From Candidatus Gastranaerophilales bacterium (GTDB taxonomy: Bacteria > Cyanobacteriota > Vampirovibrionia > Gastranaerophilales > Gastranaerophilaceae): DNA of 38,069 nt. The notes below the pieces were generated by a model. It was not told the origin of the DNA. It ran no database searches and worked only from the letters and a program-made list of their open reading frames with translations. Positions 2,834 to 24,569 of this stretch are shown here, in pieces; position 1 is the stretch's first letter, and every line of letters begins with the position of its first letter. The position numbers were made by a program, and so were the translations under genes. The stretch is from assembly GCA_944322865.1 (NCBI GenBank), contig CALUQJ010000010.1, positions 1-38,069 of the forward strand. Reading direction: 5' to 3'.

Positions 2834-4000
2834 TTATATTTGCGGAATGCATACACAAAATTCAGTGCCAGCCCCCTTTTTACTATGTACTGTAATCGTG
2901 CCGTCATGCATTTTTACAAATTCTTTTGTTATCGTTAATCCAAGACCGGTTGATAAACTCTTGTTGCTATCAGTGCACTGTTCATATTTTTCAAAGATCC
3001 TTTCCTGATCTTCCGTAGCAATACCTGAGCCGTTATCTTTCACGATAATTTCAGCCATATTCTCTTTTTTGTGTACTTTTATCCATATATTACCGTTGTT
3101 GGGTGTAAATTTCACCGCATTACTCAACAAATTAAATAAAATTTGCTGGATTTTTTGATAATCAGCATTAATTGTAACAGCTTCAACCTCGGTTGCAATG
3201 TCTATTTCTTTTTGAGCAGCAAGTGGTTTGATTACATTGCAGGCTTCAACTACTGCTGTAGAAAGTTCAAAATTACTGCGGTTTAACTTCATTGCTCCTG
3301 CTTCGATTTTTGAAATATCCAGTATTTCATTTATTATGCCTAGCAGGTGAATACCTGAGGTTTGAATATCCTGTATAAATTCTTTTTGTTTTTTATTCAG
3401 TTCGCCCGCCAGTTCTTTGGCAAGCATCTCGGAATAGCATAGGATTGAACTTAAAGGTGTTCTTATTTCATGGCTTATATGTGATAAAAAATTCGTTTTA
3501 ACTTCTTCGGATTGTTTTATTTTTTTGTTCTCTGTGTTAATTTCTAAAATTCCTTCCTGCAAAGCTTTTATCTGCATTGCAAGAATTTTGTTTATTTCTT
3601 TATCTTTAGTTATATTGGCTATTATTGCTGCGCAGCTTTTGAAAACAAGTTTTTCATCTTCGGAAAATTTATCACCTGATATTACCAGTATACCGAAAAC
3701 GGTATTTTTAATTTTCAAAGGTTCGGCAAGATAATTTTCTATACCGAATTTTTCTATAAGAACGGAAAAATCTTTATCAAAAACTCCTTTGAATAGTTTT
3801 TTACTCAGCGATTTTTCTATAAGAATATTTTGTGAAGGGATTTTGCTGTTATATGTATATTCAATTCTGATATCTTCAGGGGTAATAAAAAATATATAGC
3901 CAGAATCAAAACGAATAATTTTTTGCAGCACATCAAATAATTCTTCATGCCTGTTGATATTATAAAATTCAGCAATATGTTCTATTGTATTTTTAAACAA
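2834..4000 (-). CDS. Soluble GAF-domain sensor histidine kinase
   Basis: The 388-residue product has a GAF-like N-terminal sensor (about residues 1-135), a short coiled coil, and a HisKA domain with the H-box SHEIRTPL (phospho-accepting His at about 177). A HATPase_c domain follows, with its N-box (QQILFNLLSNAVKF), G1 (DNGSGI) and G2 (STGLGLT). There are no membrane helices, so it should sense a cytoplasmic signal. No receiver domain is attached and no response regulator is nearby, making it an orphan kinase. The TTG start follows the hpt stop codon directly, with AGAGG eight bases upstream inside hpt, which supports this start and translational coupling. It is the last gene of the minus-strand operon; no terminator hairpin is visible in the 16 bases before the convergent gene. 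Confidence 0.88.
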   Translation of the reverse strand: MFKNTIEHIAEFYNINRHEELFDVLQKIIRFDSGYIFFITPEDIRIEYTYNSKIPSQNILIEKSLSKKLFKGVFDKDFSVLIEKFGIENYLAEPLKIKNTVFGILVISGDKFSEDEKLVFKSCAAIIANITKDKEINKILAMQIKALQEGILEINTENKKIKQSEEVKTNFLSHISHEIRTPLSSILCYSEMLAKELAGELNKKQKEFIQDIQTSGIHLLGIINEILDISKIEAGAMKLNRSNFELSTAVVEACNVIKPLAAQKEIDIATEVEAVTINADYQKIQQILFNLLSNAVKFTPNNGNIWIKVHKKENMAEIIVKDNGSGIATEDQERIFEKYEQCTDSNKSLSTGLGLTITKEFVKMHDGTITVHSKKGAGTEFCVCIPQI

Positions 4001-4537
4001 TTATTTTGCCTCTACATAACCTATATATCTTAAATTTCTGTAATACCCTTCATAATCCAGCCCGTATCCGACAACAAATTTGTCGTCTATATGAAATCCG
4101 TAATAATCAGGTTCTATATCTGTTTTTCTGCATACTTTTTTGTCTAAAAGCGAACAAAATTTTGTGGATTTAGTTTTGAAATTGCAATGCATAAAATCTA
4201 TCAGAAATTTTGCGGTTAAACCGGTGTCTATAATATCTTCTATAATTAAAACATTTTTGTCGTTTAAATCCGGCAGAGAAATATCTACGGCATTAACTTT
4301 TCCGGTAGAGGAAAAAGCAGTACCGTAACTGGAAAGTCGTATAAATTCCATTTTTAACGGCATATCCAATGACTTAACTAAATCAGTCGCAAACATTACC
4401 GCACCTTTAAGTACGCATATTGCATAAACATCTTCGCCCTTATAAAATGCATTTAATTCTTTTGCTATCTCTTTTATTTTGGCTTGAATTTGTTTTTCTG
4501 TAAACAATACTTTTAAATCTTCAACTTTAATATCCAT
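4001..4537 (-). CDS. hpt: Hypoxanthine phosphoribosyltransferase
   Basis: This is a purine salvage enzyme that converts hypoxanthine (and usually guanine) plus PRPP into the nucleotide monophosphate in the cytoplasm. At 178 residues it has the normal bacterial length. The PRPP-binding loop VLIIEDIIDTGLT is clear near residues 95-107, preceded by the YAICVLKGAVMFATDL strand-loop. The C-terminal part carries the usual FVVGYGLDYEGYYRNLRYIG segment. It lies 13 bases after tilS; tilS-hpt adjacency is widespread in bacteria. AAAGGCAGG upstream provides the ribosome binding site. Confidence 0.96.
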   Translation of the reverse strand: MDIKVEDLKVLFTEKQIQAKIKEIAKELNAFYKGEDVYAICVLKGAVMFATDLVKSLDMPLKMEFIRLSSYGTAFSSTGKVNAVDISLPDLNDKNVLIIEDIIDTGLTAKFLIDFMHCNFKTKSTKFCSLLDKKVCRKTDIEPDYYGFHIDDKFVVGYGLDYEGYYRNLRYIGYVEAK

Positions 4538-4550
4538 AAATAACCTGCCT

Positions 4551-5852
4551 TTATTTTTTTATTAACATAAGCATGTGAGTTGGTTTGTTTTCAACCTTAA
4601 TTTTTTCACTTATACCAAGTCCGGCAGCCCAGAGTACCTCCTGACCGGAACATAAAAATACTAAATTATCTTTTTCATATTGCGGTATTTTTTTGTTGTT
4701 CAAATATTTTTTAATTTTTTGCTTTCCTCCTGCTCCAAAAGGATAGATATAATCACCTTCTTGTCTGTGGCGGAAAGTCAGCGGAAATTTTATTTTGCTT
4801 AAATCAACATACGCCATATAAAGTTCATCTGCCGGAAATTTCGTCGGCATCATAGTAAACTGTTCTATTGAAAAAATTCCGTCATCTGTTGGGTAATGCC
4901 CGCAGCAAGGTATTGGGGTTACGGTACAAGACTTTGAAGATTTTTGAATTGTGCATATATGGCTTGCATTTACAAACAGCCAGAGATTTGTTGAAAGTGA
5001 CATTGTGATGCCGGATTTTGCAGAATGGTTTGTGGTTATAAATTCAAGTATTAATTCGATTTTTTCTCTGTCATAATCAATCCCTGTCTGACGCAAAAAT
5101 TTATGGATAATACGTTTTTGAAACGGCGGATTGTATTGTAAAAAATCACCGGTACGAAGGTTATTCAAATCCGGCAGAAGCTCATCCAGCATGGTATTTT
5201 CATCTCGTGCAATTTGAGAAAGAGAATTAAGAGCATTTTTAACATCTCTATTAATATTTTCCATAACCGGTAAAATTTTATGCCTGATAAGGTTTCTGTT
5301 GTATTTTGTATTGTCATTGGAACTGTCATAACAAGGTGACAGATTGTTAAGTTTACAATATTCATCAATTTTTTCTCTGTAGATATCGAGCATTGGACGA
5401 TAAAATATTCCGCGGTGTTCTTTTATACCTTCAAGCCCGTATGTGCCTGAGCCTTTGATTATACGATAAAGTACAGTTTCAGCATTGTCATCAGCATTAT
5501 GTGCCGTGAAAACGCATTGAGCCTTTAATTTTGCGGCAGTTCGTTCTAAAAATTCATATCTTGCCTTGCGCGCGGCTGTTTCTGTTTTTTCCACATCATC
5601 AGAAAGGGTTTCTGAATAAAATTCAATATTGTTATCTTTGCAAAATTTTTCACATAATTTTGCATCAGCAAGGCTTTCTTTTCCGCGCCAATTGTGATTT
5701 AGATGAGCAGCTGCAAGTTTTACGCCGAGTTTATTTAATACATCGAGAAGGCACATTGAATCATACCCGCCAGAAAATGCCACAATAATTTTTTTATTAA
5801 GTAAATTGTGCTCAGCAAGATAAGATTTTATTTTTGCCGTTATATTATCCAT
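4551..5852 (-). CDS. tilS: tRNA(Ile)-lysidine synthetase
   Basis: TilS attaches lysine to C34 of the CAU-anticodon isoleucine tRNA so that it reads AUA; it is essential in most bacteria. The N-terminal PP-loop motif SGGYDS (about residues 28-33) binds ATP. The adjacent LAAAHLNHNWRGKES and VFTAHNADDNAETVLYRIIKGSG segments are typical of the N-type ATP pyrophosphatase core. A TilS C-terminal domain is recognisable by PLTFRHRQEGDYIYPFG and KKYLNNKKIPQYEKD. The length of 433 residues is normal. It sits between the Clp N-repeat gene (3-base gap) and hpt. Confidence 0.95.
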   Translation of the reverse strand: MDNITAKIKSYLAEHNLLNKKIIVAFSGGYDSMCLLDVLNKLGVKLAAAHLNHNWRGKESLADAKLCEKFCKDNNIEFYSETLSDDVEKTETAARKARYEFLERTAAKLKAQCVFTAHNADDNAETVLYRIIKGSGTYGLEGIKEHRGIFYRPMLDIYREKIDEYCKLNNLSPCYDSSNDNTKYNRNLIRHKILPVMENINRDVKNALNSLSQIARDENTMLDELLPDLNNLRTGDFLQYNPPFQKRIIHKFLRQTGIDYDREKIELILEFITTNHSAKSGITMSLSTNLWLFVNASHICTIQKSSKSCTVTPIPCCGHYPTDDGIFSIEQFTMMPTKFPADELYMAYVDLSKIKFPLTFRHRQEGDYIYPFGAGGKQKIKKYLNNKKIPQYEKDNLVFLCSGQEVLWAAGLGISEKIKVENKPTHMLMLIKK

Positions 5853-5855
5853 ATA

Positions 5856-7202
5856 TTAATGATTCCGGAATTTTTTAACGCCTTCTTTTATTTCAACGGC
5901 GTCTACACCGAGTTGTTCAAGAGCTTTCATTGCAAGGCTTGTTGGTTCAGTTGTAAGTGCAAGAAGCATGTGTGCTGATTCAATTTTTGATTTGTTTTCT
6001 TTTTTAGCAAGTTCCCAAGCCGCCTCAAGAACTCTTTTTGCGCGTTTTGTGAAAACAATTTCTTTGTCAAAATATTCGTTGCCGTAACCTATTAAATTTT
6101 CGACTACTCTGCGGGCTTCTTTGATATTAATTTCCAATTCTTTTAATACTTCAGCCCCAACACCTGTTGCCTGACCTATAATGCCGAGTAAAAACATTTC
6201 AGTTCCAACAATATTACGTCCCAAACGTCTTGCCTCTTCTTTTGCAAGTCTTAAAATAGTAAGGGTTTCAGGCATTTGTTTTTCTATAGGTTTTATAATA
6301 CTGTGTGCCAGATCATCATCGTTAATCTTTAATTCTTTGAATATATCATAAGCCACACCGCGTTTTGTTTTCAAAACACCCAGAACAATGTGTTCCGGTA
6401 AAACAACAGATGAGCCTAGTTCTTTAGCTGTTTGCAGTGCTAAATTCATTGTTCTGAAAGCATTCGGCGTAAATATAATCTGGCGTTCTTCATATTCTGA
6501 TTGGCGGGATTGAATATTTGACAGCTTTTCATCAAAAGCTTCTTCGGTAATTCCATATTTTGCTAGGATTTGAGAAAGCTCTGAATTTTTATCTTCAAGT
6601 ATAGAAGATATTATCTGTTCAGTACCGAGAATTTCATAATTAGAGGTAGAAAGTTTTGCAACAGCTCTATGGAAAACTTTTGAGGCTTCTTCGCTGTCAA
6701 AAAGTATATCCGTATCCTGCGATTTGTCCTCAGGTTCTTTGGTTTCATCAATTTCCGGGTGATATAATTTTTTTGTCTTTTTTTGAACGAGTTTTTCCAG
6801 AAGTGCACGGGATTTTTCTATATCAAATCCAAGGTTTTTAAGTATTTTTACGGAGTTTGAATTTTCTTTGTTTATCAACGCCAAAAATAAATGTTCATAT
6901 AGAATTGTCGGATTACCTGATTTATTTGCAAGATCAAGCGTATTTTTCAGCATTTCCTTGTAATCATCGCTAAAAATCAGATTTGTTTGAGAACTTACGC
7001 CAAGGTTTTTCTTTACTTCCCGCTCAATATCATCAGGCGTGATATTGTACGATTTAAATATCATAAGCGAGATGCCTTTTGCCTCTTTGGCAAGCGCAAG
7101 CAAAAGATGTTCCGGCATAATAAACGGTGACTTTAATTCTTTTGCAATTTTTTGTGATTCTATAACAACATTAGTTGCTTTTTCCGTAAACTTTTCAAAC
7201 AA
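5856..7202 (-). CDS. Six-repeat ClpC-type N-domain protein without AAA+ module
   Basis: The 448-residue product consists almost entirely of Clp N-domain repeats, at roughly residues 1-68, 76-141, 168-231, 242-306, 310-372 and 381-446. Each carries a version of the EHLLLAL motif (EHLLLAL, EHLFLAL, EQIISSI, EHIVLGV, EMFLLGI, AHMLLAL). Since a normal Clp N-domain is two repeats, this equals three N-domains in tandem, the first pair being followed by an acidic linker (about 150-170). The first residues MFEKFTEKA match the start of ClpC. There is no Walker A or B motif, no second ATPase ring and no ClpP-docking loop, so it cannot unfold substrates by itself. An adaptor or substrate-docking role is an inference. 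The start is TTG, two bases after the DUF1292 stop, with GGGGAAG at a suitable distance. Confidence 0.88.
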   Translation of the reverse strand: MFEKFTEKATNVVIESQKIAKELKSPFIMPEHLLLALAKEAKGISLMIFKSYNITPDDIEREVKKNLGVSSQTNLIFSDDYKEMLKNTLDLANKSGNPTILYEHLFLALINKENSNSVKILKNLGFDIEKSRALLEKLVQKKTKKLYHPEIDETKEPEDKSQDTDILFDSEEASKVFHRAVAKLSTSNYEILGTEQIISSILEDKNSELSQILAKYGITEEAFDEKLSNIQSRQSEYEERQIIFTPNAFRTMNLALQTAKELGSSVVLPEHIVLGVLKTKRGVAYDIFKELKINDDDLAHSIIKPIEKQMPETLTILRLAKEEARRLGRNIVGTEMFLLGIIGQATGVGAEVLKELEINIKEARRVVENLIGYGNEYFDKEIVFTKRAKRVLEAAWELAKKENKSKIESAHMLLALTTEPTSLAMKALEQLGVDAVEIKEGVKKFRNH

Positions 7203-7204
7203 AA

Positions 7205-7477
7205 CTATTCTTCCCCGTCTTCTTCTAAACTTTCTACATAAGCTGCAACTTTATCAAATTCAGCATCATCATCTATTGTTTCAAACAGATAATCTTCACC
7301 GTCTTTTAATAAGCGCATCAAAACGAGTTCATCATCTTCACCTTCCTGTGCATCAGTCGGCAAAAGCAGAGCATATTCCTTGTTTTCAACTTCAACAATA
7401 TCAAACAATTCAAATTTGATTACATTGCCTTCTTCATCAATAGTTTCAATTAATTGATTTTCTTCAAAATTTTCCAT
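7205..7477 (-). CDS. DUF1292 (YrzB-like) small acidic protein
   Basis: This is a 90-residue, strongly acidic protein matching the DUF1292/YrzB family in size and layout: ITLIDEEG-like opening (here IETIDEEGNVIKFELFDIVEVENKEYALLLP), then an acidic patch and a VLMRLL strand. The function of the family is unknown. As in Firmicutes, it lies directly next to ruvX/yqgF, which supports the assignment. AAAGGAAA precedes the ATG. Its stop lies two bases before the TTG of the Clp N-repeat gene. Confidence 0.88.
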   Translation of the reverse strand: MENFEENQLIETIDEEGNVIKFELFDIVEVENKEYALLLPTDAQEGEDDELVLMRLLKDGEDYLFETIDDDAEFDKVAAYVESLEEDGEE

Positions 7478-7492
7478 TGCATTTTCCTTTCA

Positions 7493-7894
7493 TTATTTTC
7501 TACTAAGATACTGTTCCAGTATAATACGTGCACTTTCAATATCAACCAGACCCTTGTTTTTTCTAAAGTCTGTTTTTTGATTTCTCAGATTTTCTTCTGC
7601 TGCATCAGAGGTTAATCTTTCATCTTCATAAATTATATCATAACCCTGAAGTTTTGATGCAAAATTTTTACAATCTTCTGCTTGTCCTCCTTGAGTTCCG
7701 TCCATATTATAAGGGATGCCGACAACTATTTTTTTAACATTGTTTTCTTTTGCTATTTTCAAAATCTCTTCAACCGCTTTATTTTCCGGTTCCCGATTAA
7801 TACAGGAATGCCCGTTTGCAATGATTAGAAGATAGTCGCTTAACGCAACCCCTATTCTTTTTGTTCCGATATCCAGACTCATGACTTTATACAT
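7493..7894 (-). CDS. ruvX: Putative pre-16S rRNA nuclease / YqgF (RuvX) family
   Basis: The product of about 133 residues belongs to the RNase H-like YqgF family, implicated in 16S rRNA 5'-end maturation. Motifs present are the N-terminal MSLDIGTKRIGVALSD (catalytic Asp), the IVVGIPYNMDGTQGGQA segment and YEDERLTS followed by the C-terminal DIESARIILEQYL. An in-frame ATG exists four codons upstream (7906). The ATG at 7894 is preferred because it overlaps the stop codon of the upstream gene as TAATG and has GGGTGA at good spacing. That overlap implies translational coupling with the 533-residue unknown gene. Confidence 0.93.
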   Translation of the reverse strand: MYKVMSLDIGTKRIGVALSDYLLIIANGHSCINREPENKAVEEILKIAKENNVKKIVVGIPYNMDGTQGGQAEDCKNFASKLQGYDIIYEDERLTSDAAEENLRNQKTDFRKNKGLVDIESARIILEQYLSRK

Positions 7895-9495
7895 TATTTC
7901 ACCCATAAACTTTCTATTTTAGCCACAATCTGCGTTATTTCATCAATGCTGAAATTTTCGGTATCATTGTTATATTGAATGGTAAAATAATATTCATAAA
8001 TGCTTTTGCGCAATATAAATTTAAAGAACATCTGTTTAAAAGTATTACTGTTATAGATATTATATAGTATTTCTGCTTCTTTAGGAGCACCGGTTATAAG
8101 TTTAAGGTAAGAGCAATTCAATATTTTGCGGCTCCAAACTTCTTTTTCTTCCTTATAAAAAATTCTATCAACATTCAGGTCTACAATTTGGTCAAAATCA
8201 ACCTCTGCACCGCTTTTTAGTTGAGTATTTAAGTCTTTTATAAACTCTTCAAATTCATCGCTGTAGTGTGCATCCATAAACCAGTGAACCATAAAATCAG
8301 CATTTAGCGTTGAATTAAATTCATCCATAGTCAATTCATGCTTATCTAACATATTATCAAGAATTGTCTTTATGGGGCGTCTGTCAAATTCAATATCTGC
8401 CAGCAAATTTTTCCAGCAGACATATTCATAAGGCAAACGGCTTTGTTTTGATTTTTGTGCGGTTAATTCTGCGTTATAAAGTAGTGTGCGGAAGTTTTCC
8501 GGTGAAATTTCAAGAGATTTTTCTTCTCTGTAAAATCTATCTATAATTGTATCGCATTCAAACTTAGACAATTCGTTGAAGCCGAAACAATCTTTAATAC
8601 CGCAATATTCATTTAGCACAATTGCAACAAACTGGATTTTATAATTTTCGTTTATCCTTGAAAAAATCATTGCCTGATTCCCCTGTCCGTCCGGATAAGT
8701 CAAATTCAGGCGGTAAGGACGTGAAGTTGACAAAAGTTTTTTGTAGTATTCAAGTGAATTATCTTCACGTATTCCTGCAAGTTTTAGCATGGAAATATTT
8801 TTTTTGATAAGCGGTTTAATCTCATCATTCATTAAATCTATAGATGAACTCAGTGCATGATAAGCAAGCAGGGATTTTGATTCTCCTAATAGTTTAAGTG
8901 CTTCTTTTCCCACCTCACTATCCGGTTGTGACAGAAATACAGGGATTAGAATATTAGCAAGCTCATCTCCTGAATAATCATTATTCAATGAACGCAAGAG
9001 AGTTAGTTTATCATCATCTGAGAGTGCCTGTATAAAATCCAGAAAATCAATCTGAACCTCCGGATTAATTATCGCTTTATCAAGAAGTTTCTGAGTGTCC
9101 CTGTCAACAAGTTCATCAGTATTAAGATATTCTTCGCATTCCTCATAAGACCATTCAGTATCAAGTTCCCGCAGAAAATCAAGCGCAAAAATCTTCATTG
9201 CGCTTGTACTCATATTGTTTTTTATAATTGACCACAGATGATTTATCAAAACTTCGTGTTTTGCATAGCGCATTAATAAAAATTTTACAATACCTACATT
9301 TTCCGGCATTATATTCGGAATTTCTTTAAATAAAAGTTTTGTAATTATATTCTTATCATTTTGCAAATCAAGTGTTCTGTAATGAATTTCGTAACTTGCA
9401 AAATCCTTTACATCATGAAGTTTTGAAATAAGAGAAGTTATTTCAGCCTTGATTTCAAACGGATTAAGTTGTTTAACACTACTGTCGTTAATCAT
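7894..9495 (-). CDS. Unknown 533-residue helical-repeat-like protein
   Basis: I do not recognise this protein. It has no signal peptide or membrane segment and is rich in acidic and leucine residues. The first half reads as successive amphipathic helices in the style of HEAT/ARM repeats (for example DDKLTLLRSLNNDYSGDELANILIPVFLSQPDSEVGKEALKLLGES). The second half is less regular and contains RPYRLNLTYPDGQGNQAMIFSRI, which could be a beta-rich element. It overlaps the zinc-finger gene upstream by ATGA and ruvX downstream by TAATG, so all three are translationally coupled. That tight coupling suggests a shared or stoichiometric role with the ClpX-type zinc finger, but the sequence gives no direct function. 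Confidence 0.6.
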   Translation of the reverse strand: MINDSSVKQLNPFEIKAEITSLISKLHDVKDFASYEIHYRTLDLQNDKNIITKLLFKEIPNIMPENVGIVKFLLMRYAKHEVLINHLWSIIKNNMSTSAMKIFALDFLRELDTEWSYEECEEYLNTDELVDRDTQKLLDKAIINPEVQIDFLDFIQALSDDDKLTLLRSLNNDYSGDELANILIPVFLSQPDSEVGKEALKLLGESKSLLAYHALSSSIDLMNDEIKPLIKKNISMLKLAGIREDNSLEYYKKLLSTSRPYRLNLTYPDGQGNQAMIFSRINENYKIQFVAIVLNEYCGIKDCFGFNELSKFECDTIIDRFYREEKSLEISPENFRTLLYNAELTAQKSKQSRLPYEYVCWKNLLADIEFDRRPIKTILDNMLDKHELTMDEFNSTLNADFMVHWFMDAHYSDEFEEFIKDLNTQLKSGAEVDFDQIVDLNVDRIFYKEEKEVWSRKILNCSYLKLITGAPKEAEILYNIYNSNTFKQMFFKFILRKSIYEYYFTIQYNNDTENFSIDEITQIVAKIESLWVK

Positions 9496-9770
9496 CTTCT
9501 TGCTTTACCCCAAAATGCATCAAGAATTTGCTGTGCTTCTGCTGACGGCATTCTATCATTTAAGATAAGATATTGAACAGCAATCATAGCGCATTCAGAA
9601 CATATATTAACCCCCGGTCCTTTAACCATTTTCAAAACCTGGGTATTCGGACGGTGACAAAAACTGCAATACACAAGATCATCTTCATGGTTTTCTTCGT
9701 GATGAGAATGTTTTTCCTTAACCTCTTTGTGTTTTGCGGCTCCTAATTTAACAACTTTTTCTTCAGACAT
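9492..9770 (-). CDS. Free-standing ClpX-type zinc-finger protein
   Basis: This 92-residue protein carries the ClpX zinc-binding domain without any ClpX ATPase. Cysteines at residues 35, 38, 57 and 60 form CX2CX18CX2C, exactly the ClpX spacing, inside the sequence VYCSFCHRPNTQVLKMVKGPGVNICSEC that follows the ClpX consensus. A His/Lys/Glu-rich tail precedes the finger, and a short helical tail (SAEAQQILDAFWGKARR) follows. In ClpX this domain dimerises and binds substrates and adaptors. Here it could act as a detached adaptor or decoy, or simply as a zinc-binding protein. It is the first gene of the operon, with AAGGAG upstream of its ATG, and overlaps the next gene by four bases. Confidence 0.85.
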   Translation of the reverse strand: MSEEKVVKLGAAKHKEVKEKHSHHEENHEDDLVYCSFCHRPNTQVLKMVKGPGVNICSECAMIAVQYLILNDRMPSAEAQQILDAFWGKARR

Positions 9771-16608: not shown

Positions 16609-16893
16609 ATGGAATCAGTAAACGACATTCTTTCAAAATTAGAAAACGCAGACAATTCAACAAAAAATGAATTAGAAAATGAATTAGTTAACATCGGTAC
16701 ATCTGTTTTGCCGGAATTGGTAAATAAATTACAGGTAGTCAGAGGTGTAAAGCGCGGTGTGGTTGCTATGACTTTAATTAGAATCGGCGATGCATCAGTT
16801 AAATACCTTAAAAAAGCAGCTGAAGTTAACAAAGATTTTGAATGGGTTGCCGAATACTTGATTAGAGAAATTAAAGGTACTGTTGCCGCTTAA
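16609..16893 (+). CDS. Small HEAT-like repeat protein
   Basis: This is a 94-residue helical protein without signal peptide. ATG 16609 is preferred to ATG 16597 because GGAG lies six bases before it. The sequence reads as two or three short helical pairs (NELENELVNIGTSVLPELVNKLQ, GVVAMTLIRIGDASVKYLKKAA), matching the look of HEAT or PBS-lyase-type repeats: a residue pattern of I-G-x-x-(A/S)-(V/L)-x-x-L. Function is unknown; such short proteins usually bind other proteins. It is followed by its own strong terminator, so it is probably a single-gene transcript. Confidence 0.7.
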   Translation: MESVNDILSKLENADNSTKNELENELVNIGTSVLPELVNKLQVVRGVKRGVVAMTLIRIGDASVKYLKKAAEVNKDFEWVAEYLIREIKGTVAA

Positions 16894-16911
16894 TTTCAAA
16901 AATATAATTTT

Positions 16912-16940
16912 AAAAAGCCGGTTAACAGCCGGCTTTTTTT
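16912..16940 (+). terminator. Rho-independent terminator of the HEAT-like gene
   Basis: AAAAAGCCGG (16912-16921) and CCGGCTTTTT (from 16929) pair around a seven-base loop and run into seven Ts. It lies between the HEAT-like gene and the start of the next coding region. Confidence 0.92.
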
Positions 16941-16957
16941 GTGCAATAATTATTGAC

Positions 16958-18460
16958 ATGGGGAAAAAGAGTATCATATTTTATACAACATTATTACTAT
17001 TATTGCTGGCGTATGCATTAAACGCCTCTTTTCTGGATTTTGATTTATGGGCAAGACTTATAGCCGGCATGGGGGTAATTGACGGCGGACATGTACTAAC
17101 TGAAGATTTTCTGTCTTATACTCCTGTGCACACCTGGTATGACCATGAGTGGGGAGCCGGGGTTATTTTTTACGCCTTTCTTAAACTCTTTGGACATTAC
17201 GGAATACTTTTATTACAGGTAATTTTACCGTTTTTGACCTTCTTTGTCGCAACACGCGTAACAAAAATCAGAACAGGAACTCAGCCGTATAATCTTTTAT
17301 TTTATTTTTTCTGCCTGATGGCTGCTATGAGTAATTTAAATCATCCGGTTAGATGCCACCTTTTTAGCTTTCTGTTTTTTGCTTTGTTTATATACATCCT
17401 TGAAAAAGTCAGACATGGAAAATCGCCAAAGCTGCTTATCTTGCTGCCTTTTTTAACTATTCTCTGGAACAATATCCATGGTGGTGTTGTAGCAGGACTT
17501 GGGCTTATCGGCATGTATATTGCTGGAGAAATATATAACAGAAAGCCGTTCAAGAACTATATTTATGCATTAATCGCTTCATGCGCGGTTTTGGCAATTA
17601 ATCCATGGGGATTTGAGTATATAAAATTTTTACTGACAGCTACAACTATGAATAGACCGTTAATTGTTGAATGGCAAGGCTTGTTCTCTGAGGTTCACAG
17701 ACCTTATCAAATTATTTTTAAAACGTTCTTGTGCGCTGTCGTGGTAATTGAATTGCTTAACTTGAATAAAGCCATTAAAAACTCATCTTTATTACAGCTT
17801 TACCAAAAAGCAGACAAGGTAAAATGGATTGTACTTCTTGTAACAGCGTACCTTTCAATAACGCACATTAAGATGCTTCCGTTTTTCTGTGTGGCTGTTG
17901 CCTGCTACTGCTATGAGGATCTGGCATGGATATTCCAAAAGGTTAATGAAAAAGCGGTTTATATACTGCTAATCGGCATGTCATTATATACAATTGCAGT
18001 TAAACAAATTGAATTGCCGATAAATTTTTCGATTTATCCGGTGGCAGAAGTTGAATTTTTAAAAGTAAATAACATCAAAGGCAATATCCTTGTGGATTTC
18101 GGTATCGGAAGTTTTGCCTCATACAAACTCTATCCTGACTGTAAAATTTATATGGACGGTCGGTATGAAGAAGTTTATCCTGATGAATTGCTGACAATAA
18201 ACGACAGATTTTATGCGACAAAAGGCTCCTGGGACGATGTTTTATATAAATATCCGCCGGATATTATACTGATACAGAATAATCTTCCGGTATATAAATT
18301 AATGCTCAAAAAAGAGGGCTGGCACAGGATTTATGAAGGAAGCGTATTTGCCGTATTTGTAAACGATAAATTGTATACCGGAAACTACAAAATGCCTTCA
18401 TTAGAGCGTGAATACTATAAAAAAACGCTGTTTGACACAGATATAAAATTTACAAGGTAA
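16958..18460 (+). CDS. GT-C-like polytopic membrane protein
   Basis: The product of 500 residues has about ten hydrophobic segments in its first 360 residues and a soluble C-terminal domain. The N-terminal luminal-type loop (FLDFDLWARLIAG, then DFLSYTPVHTWYDHEWGAG) is the pattern seen in GT-C-fold membrane glycosyltransferase-like proteins, where an early Asp and the WxDHEW segment are conserved. The soluble part contains KIYMDGRYEEVYP, also typical of that family. Substrate and lipid donor are unknown. ATG 16958 is used because starting earlier would translate through the terminator hairpin; no ribosome binding site is visible. The patatin gene follows four bases later. Confidence 0.68.
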   Translation: MGKKSIIFYTTLLLLLLAYALNASFLDFDLWARLIAGMGVIDGGHVLTEDFLSYTPVHTWYDHEWGAGVIFYAFLKLFGHYGILLLQVILPFLTFFVATRVTKIRTGTQPYNLLFYFFCLMAAMSNLNHPVRCHLFSFLFFALFIYILEKVRHGKSPKLLILLPFLTILWNNIHGGVVAGLGLIGMYIAGEIYNRKPFKNYIYALIASCAVLAINPWGFEYIKFLLTATTMNRPLIVEWQGLFSEVHRPYQIIFKTFLCAVVVIELLNLNKAIKNSSLLQLYQKADKVKWIVLLVTAYLSITHIKMLPFFCVAVACYCYEDLAWIFQKVNEKAVYILLIGMSLYTIAVKQIELPINFSIYPVAEVEFLKVNNIKGNILVDFGIGSFASYKLYPDCKIYMDGRYEEVYPDELLTINDRFYATKGSWDDVLYKYPPDIILIQNNLPVYKLMLKKEGWHRIYEGSVFAVFVNDKLYTGNYKMPSLEREYYKKTLFDTDIKFTR

Positions 18461-18464
18461 ACTT

Positions 18465-19682
18465 ATGGATAAAAATTGTTTAAAATACGCATGTTTGTTT
18501 GGCGGCGGAGCAATTAGAGGGGCAGCTCATGTCGGAGTTGTAAAGGCACTGGAAGAGCTGAATATTGAGTATGAAACAATAGGCGGCTCATCAGTCGGCT
18601 CAATTGTTGCGGCATTACTTGCGGTGGGGTATACGGCAGTTGAACTGCGCGAGGTATTTTTGCAGGCAAATTTTGAATTATTCAGGGATATCCAATTCAA
18701 CTTAGGTGAAAAATTTGCGATAAGTAAAGGGGAAATATTTCTGGATTGGGTAAGAGAACTTATTGAAAAAAAATATTACGGTGAGGCTTATAATAAGGGC
18801 GCTAATGAACCTGTAAGGTTTTGTGATATCAATAAAAATCTTGTTATAATAACAACTGATTTAACAAATTTTCACTGTAAAGAATTTTCAAAAAAATACA
18901 CGCCTGATTTTGAGATAGCAACAGCCGTCAGAATATCTTCCTGCATGCCGGGATTGATGAAACCTTTTGAATATGACAATAACATTCTTGTAGACGGTGA
19001 TTTGCAAAAATCATGGCCTATGTGGCGGCTTTCTGACAGTTTGGATAACCTTGATGAAAGAATTTTGGAAATAAGACTGGAAGGCGGCTGCGGCGGTAAA
19101 GATATGGGAACTCTTAACTATGTGAACACTGTCTATAGTTGCGTAACTTCTATTGCTACTGAATTTGTAATAGACAGGTATTCTGGCAATGATAAATATG
19201 ATTTTATTGTTTTGAATACAGGTGATATAATTATCATTGATTTTAACCAGTCAAAAGAAAACCGTGAAAAAATGATGGATTCAGGCTATAAAGAAACAAT
19301 CCGGTACTTCAAGGAATATCTGCCTAAGAAAAAGGATCTTTTATTTGAAATTTATGACAGCTTGTATAGTATGTTCGGGCGTATAAACAGTGCTATACTT
19401 TCTAAAAATGTCAAAAAAGCCAAAATGCTTCTAGGTGAGGTATTTATGTATCTAGCGGATCATTCCAAATTTATTGACAAGAATATACAGGATATGATTT
19501 TGGCTTACCGTAACGACTTTCTCGATAACATAAAATATCCCGCATTGTTCGGTATAACAAGACTTAATAACTCAAAAGAAATTCTGGCTCAAACAGAAAA
19601 TATTCTTGCTTTGCTAAAAAATAAAGTTTTAGAGATGAAAGATTATAATTTATTAATCCGCAAGAAAAATATTGACAATTAA
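18465..19682 (+). CDS. Patatin-like phospholipase
   Basis: This is a 405-residue protein with the patatin Ser-Asp dyad: glycine-rich oxyanion loop FGGGAIRGAAH (about residues 12-22), nucleophile elbow GSSVG (Ser about 43), and the Asp in VDGD (about 177, where most members have DGG or DGA). The family hydrolyses acyl chains of phospholipids or other esters. No signal peptide or membrane helix is seen, so it should be cytoplasmic or peripheral. The C-terminal 190 residues are helical and unassigned. It forms a two-gene unit with the GT-C-like gene. The 3' end overlaps the promoter of the following tRNA gene. Confidence 0.9.
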   Translation: MDKNCLKYACLFGGGAIRGAAHVGVVKALEELNIEYETIGGSSVGSIVAALLAVGYTAVELREVFLQANFELFRDIQFNLGEKFAISKGEIFLDWVRELIEKKYYGEAYNKGANEPVRFCDINKNLVIITTDLTNFHCKEFSKKYTPDFEIATAVRISSCMPGLMKPFEYDNNILVDGDLQKSWPMWRLSDSLDNLDERILEIRLEGGCGGKDMGTLNYVNTVYSCVTSIATEFVIDRYSGNDKYDFIVLNTGDIIIIDFNQSKENREKMMDSGYKETIRYFKEYLPKKKDLLFEIYDSLYSMFGRINSAILSKNVKKAKMLLGEVFMYLADHSKFIDKNIQDMILAYRNDFLDNIKYPALFGITRLNNSKEILAQTENILALLKNKVLEMKDYNLLIRKKNIDN

Positions 19683-22607: not shown

Positions 22608-24569
22608 ATGGCTAATCTGAAATCAAAACTTAAATCAAAAAGTTTTTTTGTGTATTCGACATTAATACATATATTTTTGTCAATTATAATAATTCTGGCA
22701 TCTTACCTATTTTTAGTGCCGAATGTTTACAATTTTATGGTAAAGAATTTTTCGGCAACAGAAACCGGAGATAATAATATTGCGCTGATTGTTATTGACG
22801 ACAAATCGGTTGACAGATACCGCTGGCCATGGAAACGCGAACTTTATGCTGATATTTTTAATTACTTTAATGAATACAGTTCTCCGGCAATTGTTGGTTT
22901 TGATTCTATTCCATCGGCGCCGGATCACGAAAATCCCGAATCTGATTTAAAGTTTTTCGACTCAATGAAAAAAAACGATAAACTCGTTGTGGGATTTGCC
23001 CCTTCAATTGCGCAATACGAAGCGCAGCAGGAAGGATATAATGACAAATTTAAAAAGAAATTTGCAATAAATGTTGTTGATAAACGCAACTACATTCCGC
23101 AGGAAAGCTATCACAGTATATCTTACTATCCTGATGGATATTTTAATTCTGTAAAATATGCTGGTTCTGTAAATAACACTCCGAATATCAACGGTTATCT
23201 TGTACAGGCGGATCAGGTGGTAACGATTCAAGGGACTACTTATCCTTCATTAGCACTTAGAATGTATCTGCTTTTGAATAGTGCTGATACTATAACGATT
23301 AATGATGAAAATATACTTGTAGATAAGACAGGATTAACAATTCCAGGATTTTCAACTTCAAACGGGTTTAAAAACTCAATCCATTTTTACTCACGACATA
23401 AAAATTCTGAGTATTCACACAAACAATACTCTGCTGTCGACATAATAGATTCTTATAAAGCCTTAAAAAATGGAGAAAAACCGGTTATAGATCCCGCGGA
23501 ATTTAACGGCAAATTTGTTCTGATAGGGGCAAACGCAAGGGCAGCAGCGCTCGGGCTAGATGATACGGTTGCAACTCCTATGCTGCAAAAACATCCGGGA
23601 GTTGATATTCAGGCAACAATTCTTGACAATCTGCTAAATGACGAATTTATATCTCTTCCGCCATTTAGCTGCGAATTAGCTTTTATCCTCCTTTTGACAG
23701 TGGCAACATTTGTTTTGATAAGCCGGCTCTCATTTTTCCGTTCGCTCATTATGCTGATAGTTATAGGCGCAGGATATTTTATATTCTGTATTCTTGCATA
23801 TAGGAATAACCTGGCATTTGATGTCATAACCCCGCTTTTAGTACAGTTGATTACAATGATTTTTGCCTACTCTTTCCGTTTTATCCTTGAAGGTAAAAAC
23901 AAAGAGAAAATTAAGCAGGCTATGGGCAAATATCTTTCTCAGGACATTATGAAAAATGTTGTAAAAAACATTGATAACATAACTCTTGGCGGTAAAAGAG
24001 CAAATGTAACAGTTCTTTTTGCCGACATAAGAGGTTTTACAAGTATGAGTGAAAAAATGACTGCTGAAGAAGTTTCAATGATTCTGAACGAATATTTTAG
24101 CGAAATAGAACCAATTATTACAAAATACAACGGTGTAATCAATAAATTTATCGGGGATGCCGTAATGGCAATATTCGGAGAACCTATTCAGGATATTAAC
24201 CACCCGACAAATGCGGTCAAATGCGCTTATGCAATGCTTAAAAAAGTAGAATGGCTGCAAGACAAATGGCTTAATGAAGGCAAACCTAAAATTGAAATCG
24301 GTGTCGGTATTAACACAGGTGATGCATTTGTAGGCAATATAGGCTCTGAAAAACGTCTTGAATACACCGTTATCGGGGATATGGTTAACCTTGCAAGTCG
24401 TATTGAAAGCTACAACAAAGTTTATAAAACAAACTTTTTGATAAGTTCATCCACCTATAACCAGGTAAGTTCTATCGTGGACGTGATCAAAATAAGCGAG
24501 GTTACAATCCGCGGCAAAGCTAAAAAAATGGATATTTATGAAGTATTGAGAGTAAGCAGCAATGATTGA
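22608..24569 (+). CDS. CHASE2-domain class III adenylate/guanylate cyclase
   Basis: The 653-residue membrane protein has an N-terminal membrane helix (about 15-38) and an extracytoplasmic CHASE2 sensor (about 50-340; ALIVIDDKSVDRYRWPWKRELYADIF is characteristic). Three membrane helices follow (about 350-430), then a class III cyclase domain (about 465-640). Both metal-binding Asp residues are present (VLFADIRGFTSMSEKM and FIGDAVMAIFG). The adenine-type Lys (INKFIGD) and the catalytic Asn/Arg in YTVIGDMVNLASRIES fit cAMP production, though cGMP cannot be excluded. This architecture is common in cyanobacteria. The gene overlaps recG by eight bases and diverges from eda. Confidence 0.92.
   Translation: MANLKSKLKSKSFFVYSTLIHIFLSIIIILASYLFLVPNVYNFMVKNFSATETGDNNIALIVIDDKSVDRYRWPWKRELYADIFNYFNEYSSPAIVGFDSIPSAPDHENPESDLKFFDSMKKNDKLVVGFAPSIAQYEAQQEGYNDKFKKKFAINVVDKRNYIPQESYHSISYYPDGYFNSVKYAGSVNNTPNINGYLVQADQVVTIQGTTYPSLALRMYLLLNSADTITINDENILVDKTGLTIPGFSTSNGFKNSIHFYSRHKNSEYSHKQYSAVDIIDSYKALKNGEKPVIDPAEFNGKFVLIGANARAAALGLDDTVATPMLQKHPGVDIQATILDNLLNDEFISLPPFSCELAFILLLTVATFVLISRLSFFRSLIMLIVIGAGYFIFCILAYRNNLAFDVITPLLVQLITMIFAYSFRFILEGKNKEKIKQAMGKYLSQDIMKNVVKNIDNITLGGKRANVTVLFADIRGFTSMSEKMTAEEVSMILNEYFSEIEPIITKYNGVINKFIGDAVMAIFGEPIQDINHPTNAVKCAYAMLKKVEWLQDKWLNEGKPKIEIGVGINTGDAFVGNIGSEKRLEYTVIGDMVNLASRIESYNKVYKTNFLISSSTYNQVSSIVDVIKISEVTIRGKAKKMDIYEVLRVSSND

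Follow-up and report, generated by a model that had tools for sequence, protein, structure and literature searches.

What does a protein built of Clp N-domains, with no ATPase attached, do in a bacterium whose ClpC carries an intact N-domain of its own? The question is raised by a gene of Candidatus Gastranaerophilales, an order of gut-dwelling relatives of the cyanobacteria, that lies in a stretch of 38,069 nucleotides, the whole of which we call the window. The protein and its parts are as follows.

5856 to 7202, minus strand: ATPase-free protein of 448 amino acids with a TTG start; six Clp_N repeats, corresponding to three ClpC-type N-domains
6780 to 7202, minus strand: domain 1, residues 1-141, repeats 1 and 2 (6999-7157, 6786-6935); Clp_N matches and a fold match to the Hsp104/ClpB N-domain
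6708 to 6779, minus strand: acidic linker joining domain 1 to domain 2 (residues 142-165), modeled at low confidence and containing an invariant H148-P149-E150
6285 to 6707, minus strand: domain 2, residues 166-306, repeats 3 and 4 (6522-6641, 6297-6440); Clp_N matches and a fold match to the ClpC N-domain
5865 to 6284, minus strand: domain 3, residues 307-446, repeats 5 and 6 (6087-6245, 5862-6014); Clp_N matches and a fold match to the ClpC N-domain

A sequence-only reading of this locus had counted six tandem Clp_N repeats, and profile searches bear out that count. Six Clp_N stretches were recognized in the 448-amino-acid open reading frame (Pfam PF02861; E = 2.5e-59; score 197.7 bits, cut-off 20.7), and a six-frame profile search of the same genome returned six separate above-cut-off matches within it (25.1 to 45.0 bits) at the repeat coordinates given above. 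Genome-wide, the only other Clp_N matches were four: two in ClpC (contig 86, 850-amino-acid frame) and two in ClpB (contig 24, 881-amino-acid frame). Among aligned relatives TTG is the commonest start codon (81/114), followed by ATG (27) and GTG (6).

The motor, by comparison, is missing. No Pfam AAA family matched the 448-amino-acid protein, the AAA+ modules of the Clp/Hsp100 ATPases (ClpA, ClpB, and ClpC) are absent from it and from 52 scanned orthologues, and full-length Clp ATPase models score far under their cut-offs on it (ClpB, 91.7 versus 1232 bits). All 52 orthologues matched Clp_N, none matched the AAA ATPase core model, and a single one gave a weak match to a Cdc6-lid model. A broken Clp ATPase can be ruled out: the gene is conserved, with a dN/dS of about 0.03-0.04. 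The last repeat also matched the histone-fold family PF00808 (26.7 bits, cut-off 21.4), as did 10 of the 52 relatives and one Clp_N protein of another order; we judged this to be a cross-match of short helices.

We predicted the structure of the protein with AlphaFold2. The whole-protein model (71 aligned sequences) has a mean pLDDT of 83.4 and a pTM of 0.53, so that the individual domains are well formed in the model while their relative placement is uncertain. Confidence is low in the linker, the least conserved stretch of the protein, where pLDDT falls below 50 at residues 142-146 and 153-162; domain 3, by comparison, directly abuts domain 2 with no linker between them. When the predicted domains were compared with solved structures (VIA-align), domain 3 matched the Bacillus subtilis ClpC N-domain with Z 23.4 and an rmsd of 1.3 over 136 residues, and domain 1 matched Hsp104/ClpB N-domains with Z of about 17-19 (16.9 to 18.7). 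Domain 2, which was poorly tested in the whole-model run, was folded alone (48 sequences; pLDDT 80.7, pTM 0.79) and matched the Staphylococcus aureus ClpC N-domain with Z 18.7 and an rmsd of 2.1 over 128 residues. Because the fold matches hold domain by domain, all three repeat pairs are predicted to form an N-domain. Together with the lack of any AAA match, this upholds the earlier proposal of three N-domains in one ATPase-free protein.

ClpC, ClpB, ClpX, and ClpP are encoded by separate genes of this genome, and ClpP was found in 21 of 21 genomes searched. Each of the three domains is nearer in sequence to the organism's ClpC than to its ClpB: identity to the ClpC N-domain is 35%, 25%, and 44% for domains 1, 2, and 3, respectively, versus 20%, 15%, and 18% to ClpB. 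Domain 3 is also the most conserved of the three.

The gene is a near-constant feature of its order. A full-length match was present in 54 of 59 relatives, the window's own genome included; the full-length gene was missing from G007, G041, G048, and G054 and from G058, the sole genome of another order. Four of the 58 genomes of the order in this set thus lack it, which indicates that the gene can be lost. G007 encodes a single-domain protein of 143 amino acids (L082:2113-2544, minus strand) that matches domain 1 and has lost the other two domains. In a wider draw from the class, the full-length gene was found in 97 of 98 Candidatus Gastranaerophilales genomes (all except G229) and in none of the 96 drawn from other orders, whose best matches covered only the last domain, as expected for ClpC; a draw from the phylum gave 85/85 genomes of the order and 0/109 others. 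The genome splits of both draws (98/96 and 85/109) were counted by hand.

In a tree of 89 domain rows, for which 17 of 96 non-redundant orthologues contributed three domains each, domains 1, 2, and 3 formed one clade each across the order (support 98/93, 100/97, and 100/100, respectively), and ClpC N-domains formed a separate single clade (98/84). One clade per domain across the order implies that three distinct domains predate its radiation and that the triple architecture is ancestral; the topology also argues that there was no later exchange of domains with ClpC. Domain 3 grouped with ClpC and with most single- and multidomain ATPase-free proteins of other orders, and the tree leaves the order of the deeper splits undecided. 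Comparison with five genomes of the same genus gives a whole-gene dN/dS between 0.033 and 0.044, with dS saturated; all three domains are under strong purifying selection.

ATPase-free N-domains have precedents. Mycobacterial ClpC2, as described in the accessible part of PMC10030653, resembles the three-domain protein in being ATPase-free with a ClpC-type N-domain, through which it binds ClpC1 ligands and sequesters a ClpC1-directed peptide. ClpC2 has a single N-domain, which follows a nonhomologous helical region that dimerizes and binds a promoter, whereas the protein studied here has Clp_N repeats all the way from residue 1 to its C terminus. Plant ClpT1 and ClpT2 are likewise ATPase-free Clp N-domain proteins that act with Clp machinery, and ClpT1 binds Hsp100 chaperones and alters the ATPase of ClpD (PMC4243950, from the portion available); unlike our protein, they carry one N-domain, reside in the plastid, and are attached to the ClpPR core. 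The expectation of a new use of the domain does not hold in that form; ATPase-free Clp N-domain proteins are known, and what is new here is the order-specific form with three N-domains. We found no paper on an ATPase-free protein with three Clp N-domains, or on Clp_N proteins of Gastranaerophilales, in the literature searched, with subscription journals mostly outside that search.

Other Vampirovibrionia-type genomes (G058 and L165) also encode proteins with several Clp_N repeats and no AAA module, of 829, 434, 311, 306, and 149 amino acids. These differ from the three-domain protein in length and repeat number, and most of their domains fall outside the clades of domains 1, 2, and 3; in the tree, the 829-amino-acid protein and ClpB sit on long branches, and their positions are unsure. 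The class shows a wider tendency toward ATPase-free Clp_N proteins, of which the three-domain protein is one product.

The 829-amino-acid protein of G058 (L199:14802-17291, minus strand) has five Pfam Clp_N stretches and, with a repeat model built for this analysis, nine matches; its 434-amino-acid neighbor in the list (L199:12154-13458, minus strand) has four Pfam stretches and five matches with the repeat model. The same genome fuses a Clp_N domain to a Ser/Thr protein kinase (PF00069, E = 2.2e-48) with no AAA module (L200:1403-2848, minus strand). At L165:10-2337 (plus strand), three genes in a row encode ATPase-free Clp_N proteins of 4, 4, and 2 repeats, and a 913-amino-acid ClpC at L164:1712-4453 (plus strand) has an extra, near-identical repeat unit in its N-terminal region, which is either real or an assembly effect.

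The ClpC2 and ClpT1 precedents of N-domains without a motor count toward the reading that we prefer, to which we give a probability of roughly 45%: a putative soluble, trivalent ClpC-type receptor that is ATPase-free and acts in trans, with the direction of its action, delivery or restraint, undecided. The plant proteins also suggest a different role, that of an accessory subunit which would attach to ClpC or to the ClpP core and adjust access or assembly there instead of binding clients. Our domains match the ATPase-free N-domains of ClpT1 and ClpT2 at Z 17-20, ClpP is present in every genome searched for it, and ClpT1 interacts with ClpC2 and ClpD in the accessible text of PMC4243950. We nevertheless regard such a subunit as unlikely, given one N-domain in ClpT versus three here, an ancestry that the lineage shares with plastids at the phylum level only, and the lack of a full-length homolog in the 109 phylum genomes outside the order.

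If the protein is a trivalent receptor, its binding sites should matter, and the ClpC N-domain provides the template for them. In the available part of PMC12583610, this domain is described as having two phospho-arginine (pArg) pockets (T7, E32, and E106, with R9 and R122 nearby) and a hydrophobic groove with K85, a residue contacted by known peptides; adaptors, pArg, substrates, and cyclic peptides all work via these N-domain sites. The cyclomarin contacts on the ClpC N-domain are F2, F80, and E89, according to the part of PMC10030653 that is accessible.

Compared with ClpC, the three-domain protein keeps the fold, the closest sequences, the groove, and part of the pocket residues, and it differs in having three N-domains per chain and neither AAA modules nor an M-domain. 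The sequence-only reading had asked about retention of binding residues, and the answer varies by domain. Neither of the outcomes that would have gone against that reading, a count of just two to four repeats or the disappearance of every pocket residue, was observed. Glutamates at the positions equivalent to E32 and E106 are kept in domain 1 (91 and 87 of 96 sequences, respectively) and domain 2 (90 and 89); in domain 3 the E32 site is invariant (96) whereas the E106 site is a glutamate in only 43, and the window's own protein has A410 there. Domain 1 keeps T7 and F80 in 96/96. F80 is kept in 88/96 in domain 2, where the K85 site is mostly F. Domain 3 has F or Y at the F80 site in 89/96, K85 in 93/96, E89 in 83/96, and K or R at the R122 site in 76/96, with M310 and E312 replacing the T7- and R9-type residues of the first pocket. 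K85 equivalents are K or R in 91/96 (domain 1) and 95/96 (domain 3) sequences.

To these we added positions 13, 17, 21, 88, 92, and 96, a tentative assignment based in part on structure titles. We compared the conservation of ten groove and seven pocket positions, several of which are provisional, with that of random positions of the same residue class, and the excess was mildly significant: groove conservation was raised in domains 1 and 3 (P = 0.037 and 0.020, respectively) but not in the second domain (P = 0.74), and pArg-pocket conservation gave P = 0.007, 0.07, and 0.15 for domains 1, 3, and 2, respectively (all values nominal, six tests). The conserved groove and pocket positions may serve the fold instead. 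The specific idea of phospho-arginine recognition found no support: the organism's own ClpC keeps the pocket glutamates too, and a McsB-type kinase domain (PF00217) was found in 0/29 genomes but likewise in 0/14 control genomes (B. subtilis was among the controls of the ClpP search). ClpS was not found in any of 29 genomes, with matches in 5 of 14 controls.

Conserved grooves in domains 1 and 3 would also suit a protective sponge that soaks up peptide antibiotics or toxins which would otherwise hit the ClpC N-domain. The basic residues at the peptide-contacted K85 positions fit this reading, and capacity would rise with three domains. We know of no producer of a ClpC-directed peptide in this niche, and presence in 97/98 genomes and a housekeeping-type gene cluster (below) suit a core role better. 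ClpC2 does act in this way with one N-domain, but it has a nonhomologous N-terminal dimerizing part and represses its own promoter (PMC10030653, accessible part), whereas the three-domain protein begins directly with an N-domain. Altogether we find a sponge quite unlikely.

The residues of domain 3 raise another alternative, in which this domain stands in for the N-domain of ClpC itself when ClpC is at rest, thereby activating or locking ClpC. K85- and R122-type residues anchor the N-domain in the resting state of S. aureus ClpC (PMC12583610, in the part available), and domain 3, which is closest to ClpC and the best conserved of the three, largely keeps both. The R9 position, however, is E312 in domain 3, the resting state is known from S. 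aureus ClpC and not from the ClpC of this organism, and common ancestry alone accounts for part of the likeness; we consider a regulator of ClpC assembly decidedly unlikely.

The gene neighborhood gives a further view of the three-domain protein. The genes around it, all on the same strand, are listed below.

9492 to 9770, minus strand: standalone ClpX-type C4 zinc finger of 92 amino acids, first in the cluster (PF06689, E = 9.2e-13)
7894 to 9495, minus strand: 533-amino-acid protein with no Pfam or NCBIfam match, an order-wide neighbor of the zinc finger
7493 to 7906, minus strand: ruvX (yqgF) (PF03652, E = 4e-36; TIGR00250)
7205 to 7477, minus strand: DUF1292 gene, 2 bases upstream of the three-domain gene (PF06949, E = 5.2e-14)
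4551 to 5852, minus strand: tilS, 3 bases downstream of the three-domain gene (TIGR02432, E = 5.4e-54)
4001 to 4537, minus strand: hpt, hypoxanthine phosphoribosyltransferase (TIGR01203, E = 5.6e-56)
2834 to 4000, minus strand: histidine kinase with GAF-HisKA-HATPase architecture (PF00512, PF02518)

The best solved relative of the zinc finger is the Escherichia coli ClpX zinc domain (1ovx, E = 2.7e-07). A zinc-finger match was present in 59/59 genomes, mostly as both kinds, a free protein beside ClpX, and the free form is order-wide. DUF1292 lies directly upstream of the full-length gene in 26 of the 54 loci that carry it (the window and L029-L081), and in 23 of these 26 the free zinc finger lies within the fetched stretch; of the remaining three, two are cut off by the end of a contig, and in the third (L048) the only match close by is ClpX itself. 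In the other 28 loci the three-domain gene lies elsewhere, with no common neighbor. When 20 genomes of this latter kind were sampled, the zinc finger, the 533-amino-acid gene, and ruvX were together in all 20, accompanied by DUF1292 in 19, the last case being a contig end. Since the cluster stays together where the three-domain gene lies apart, the cluster is old, and the three-domain gene joined it in one branch. Operon linkage as proof of a function shared with the zinc finger is weakened by this finding, because the linkage is a later event in one branch. PADLOC gave no anti-phage defense match for the three-domain protein, the zinc finger, or the 533-amino-acid protein. Elsewhere in the window, a gene at 22608-24569 (plus strand) combines a CHASE2 domain with an adenylate/guanylate cyclase domain, and a 525-amino-acid open reading frame with no Pfam match (16883-18460, plus strand) adjoins a patatin-like protein (18465-19682).

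No Clp ATPase or ClpP gene lies beside the three-domain gene. This context, which has no link to any Clp ATPase gene, and the diverged groove of domain 2 could point to a structural leftover, a general helical-repeat scaffold derived from ClpC and cut off from proteolysis. Against such a scaffold, groove positions are conserved in two domains and constraint is strong over the whole gene, and we hold it to be highly improbable.

Returning to the trivalent receptor, we propose that the hydrophobic grooves of domains 1 and 3 would bind the ligand class of the ClpC N-domain, namely, unfolded segments or ClpC adaptors, and that domain 1 may also use its pArg1-type pocket for ligand binding. Three sites per chain would permit multivalent binding. 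Clients might then be either handed to ClpCP or held back, and the three-domain protein would determine how many ligands gain access to the ClpC ring and its six N-domains. For a scaffold or a partner-specific contact, domain 2 would be the best candidate, because its groove has diverged while the domain stays constrained. In this way the three-domain protein probably helps decide which proteins reach the ClpC machine.

A broader version of this idea takes in the zinc finger. The N-domain chain and the free zinc domain share a gene cluster in one branch of the order, and the receptor domains of both Clp unfoldases might have been detached from their motors and kept free, such that three N-domains and a ClpX-type zinc domain would together act as a layer of receptors, distributing clients to either ClpCP or ClpXP. 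We think this extension unlikely.

As far as record titles tell, the lineage is uncultured, and we found no study of its proteolysis in the literature searched. The sharing of adaptors and clients among Clp proteases is usually studied with ring-borne N-domains, for which a conserved ClpC-type receptor that is free of the ring and has three sites would be an obvious rival or supplier. If our reading is correct, more proteins than ClpC itself could potentially be bound by ClpC-directed peptides and targeted-degradation molecules, and the receptor layer of a Clp protease can evolve apart from its motor.
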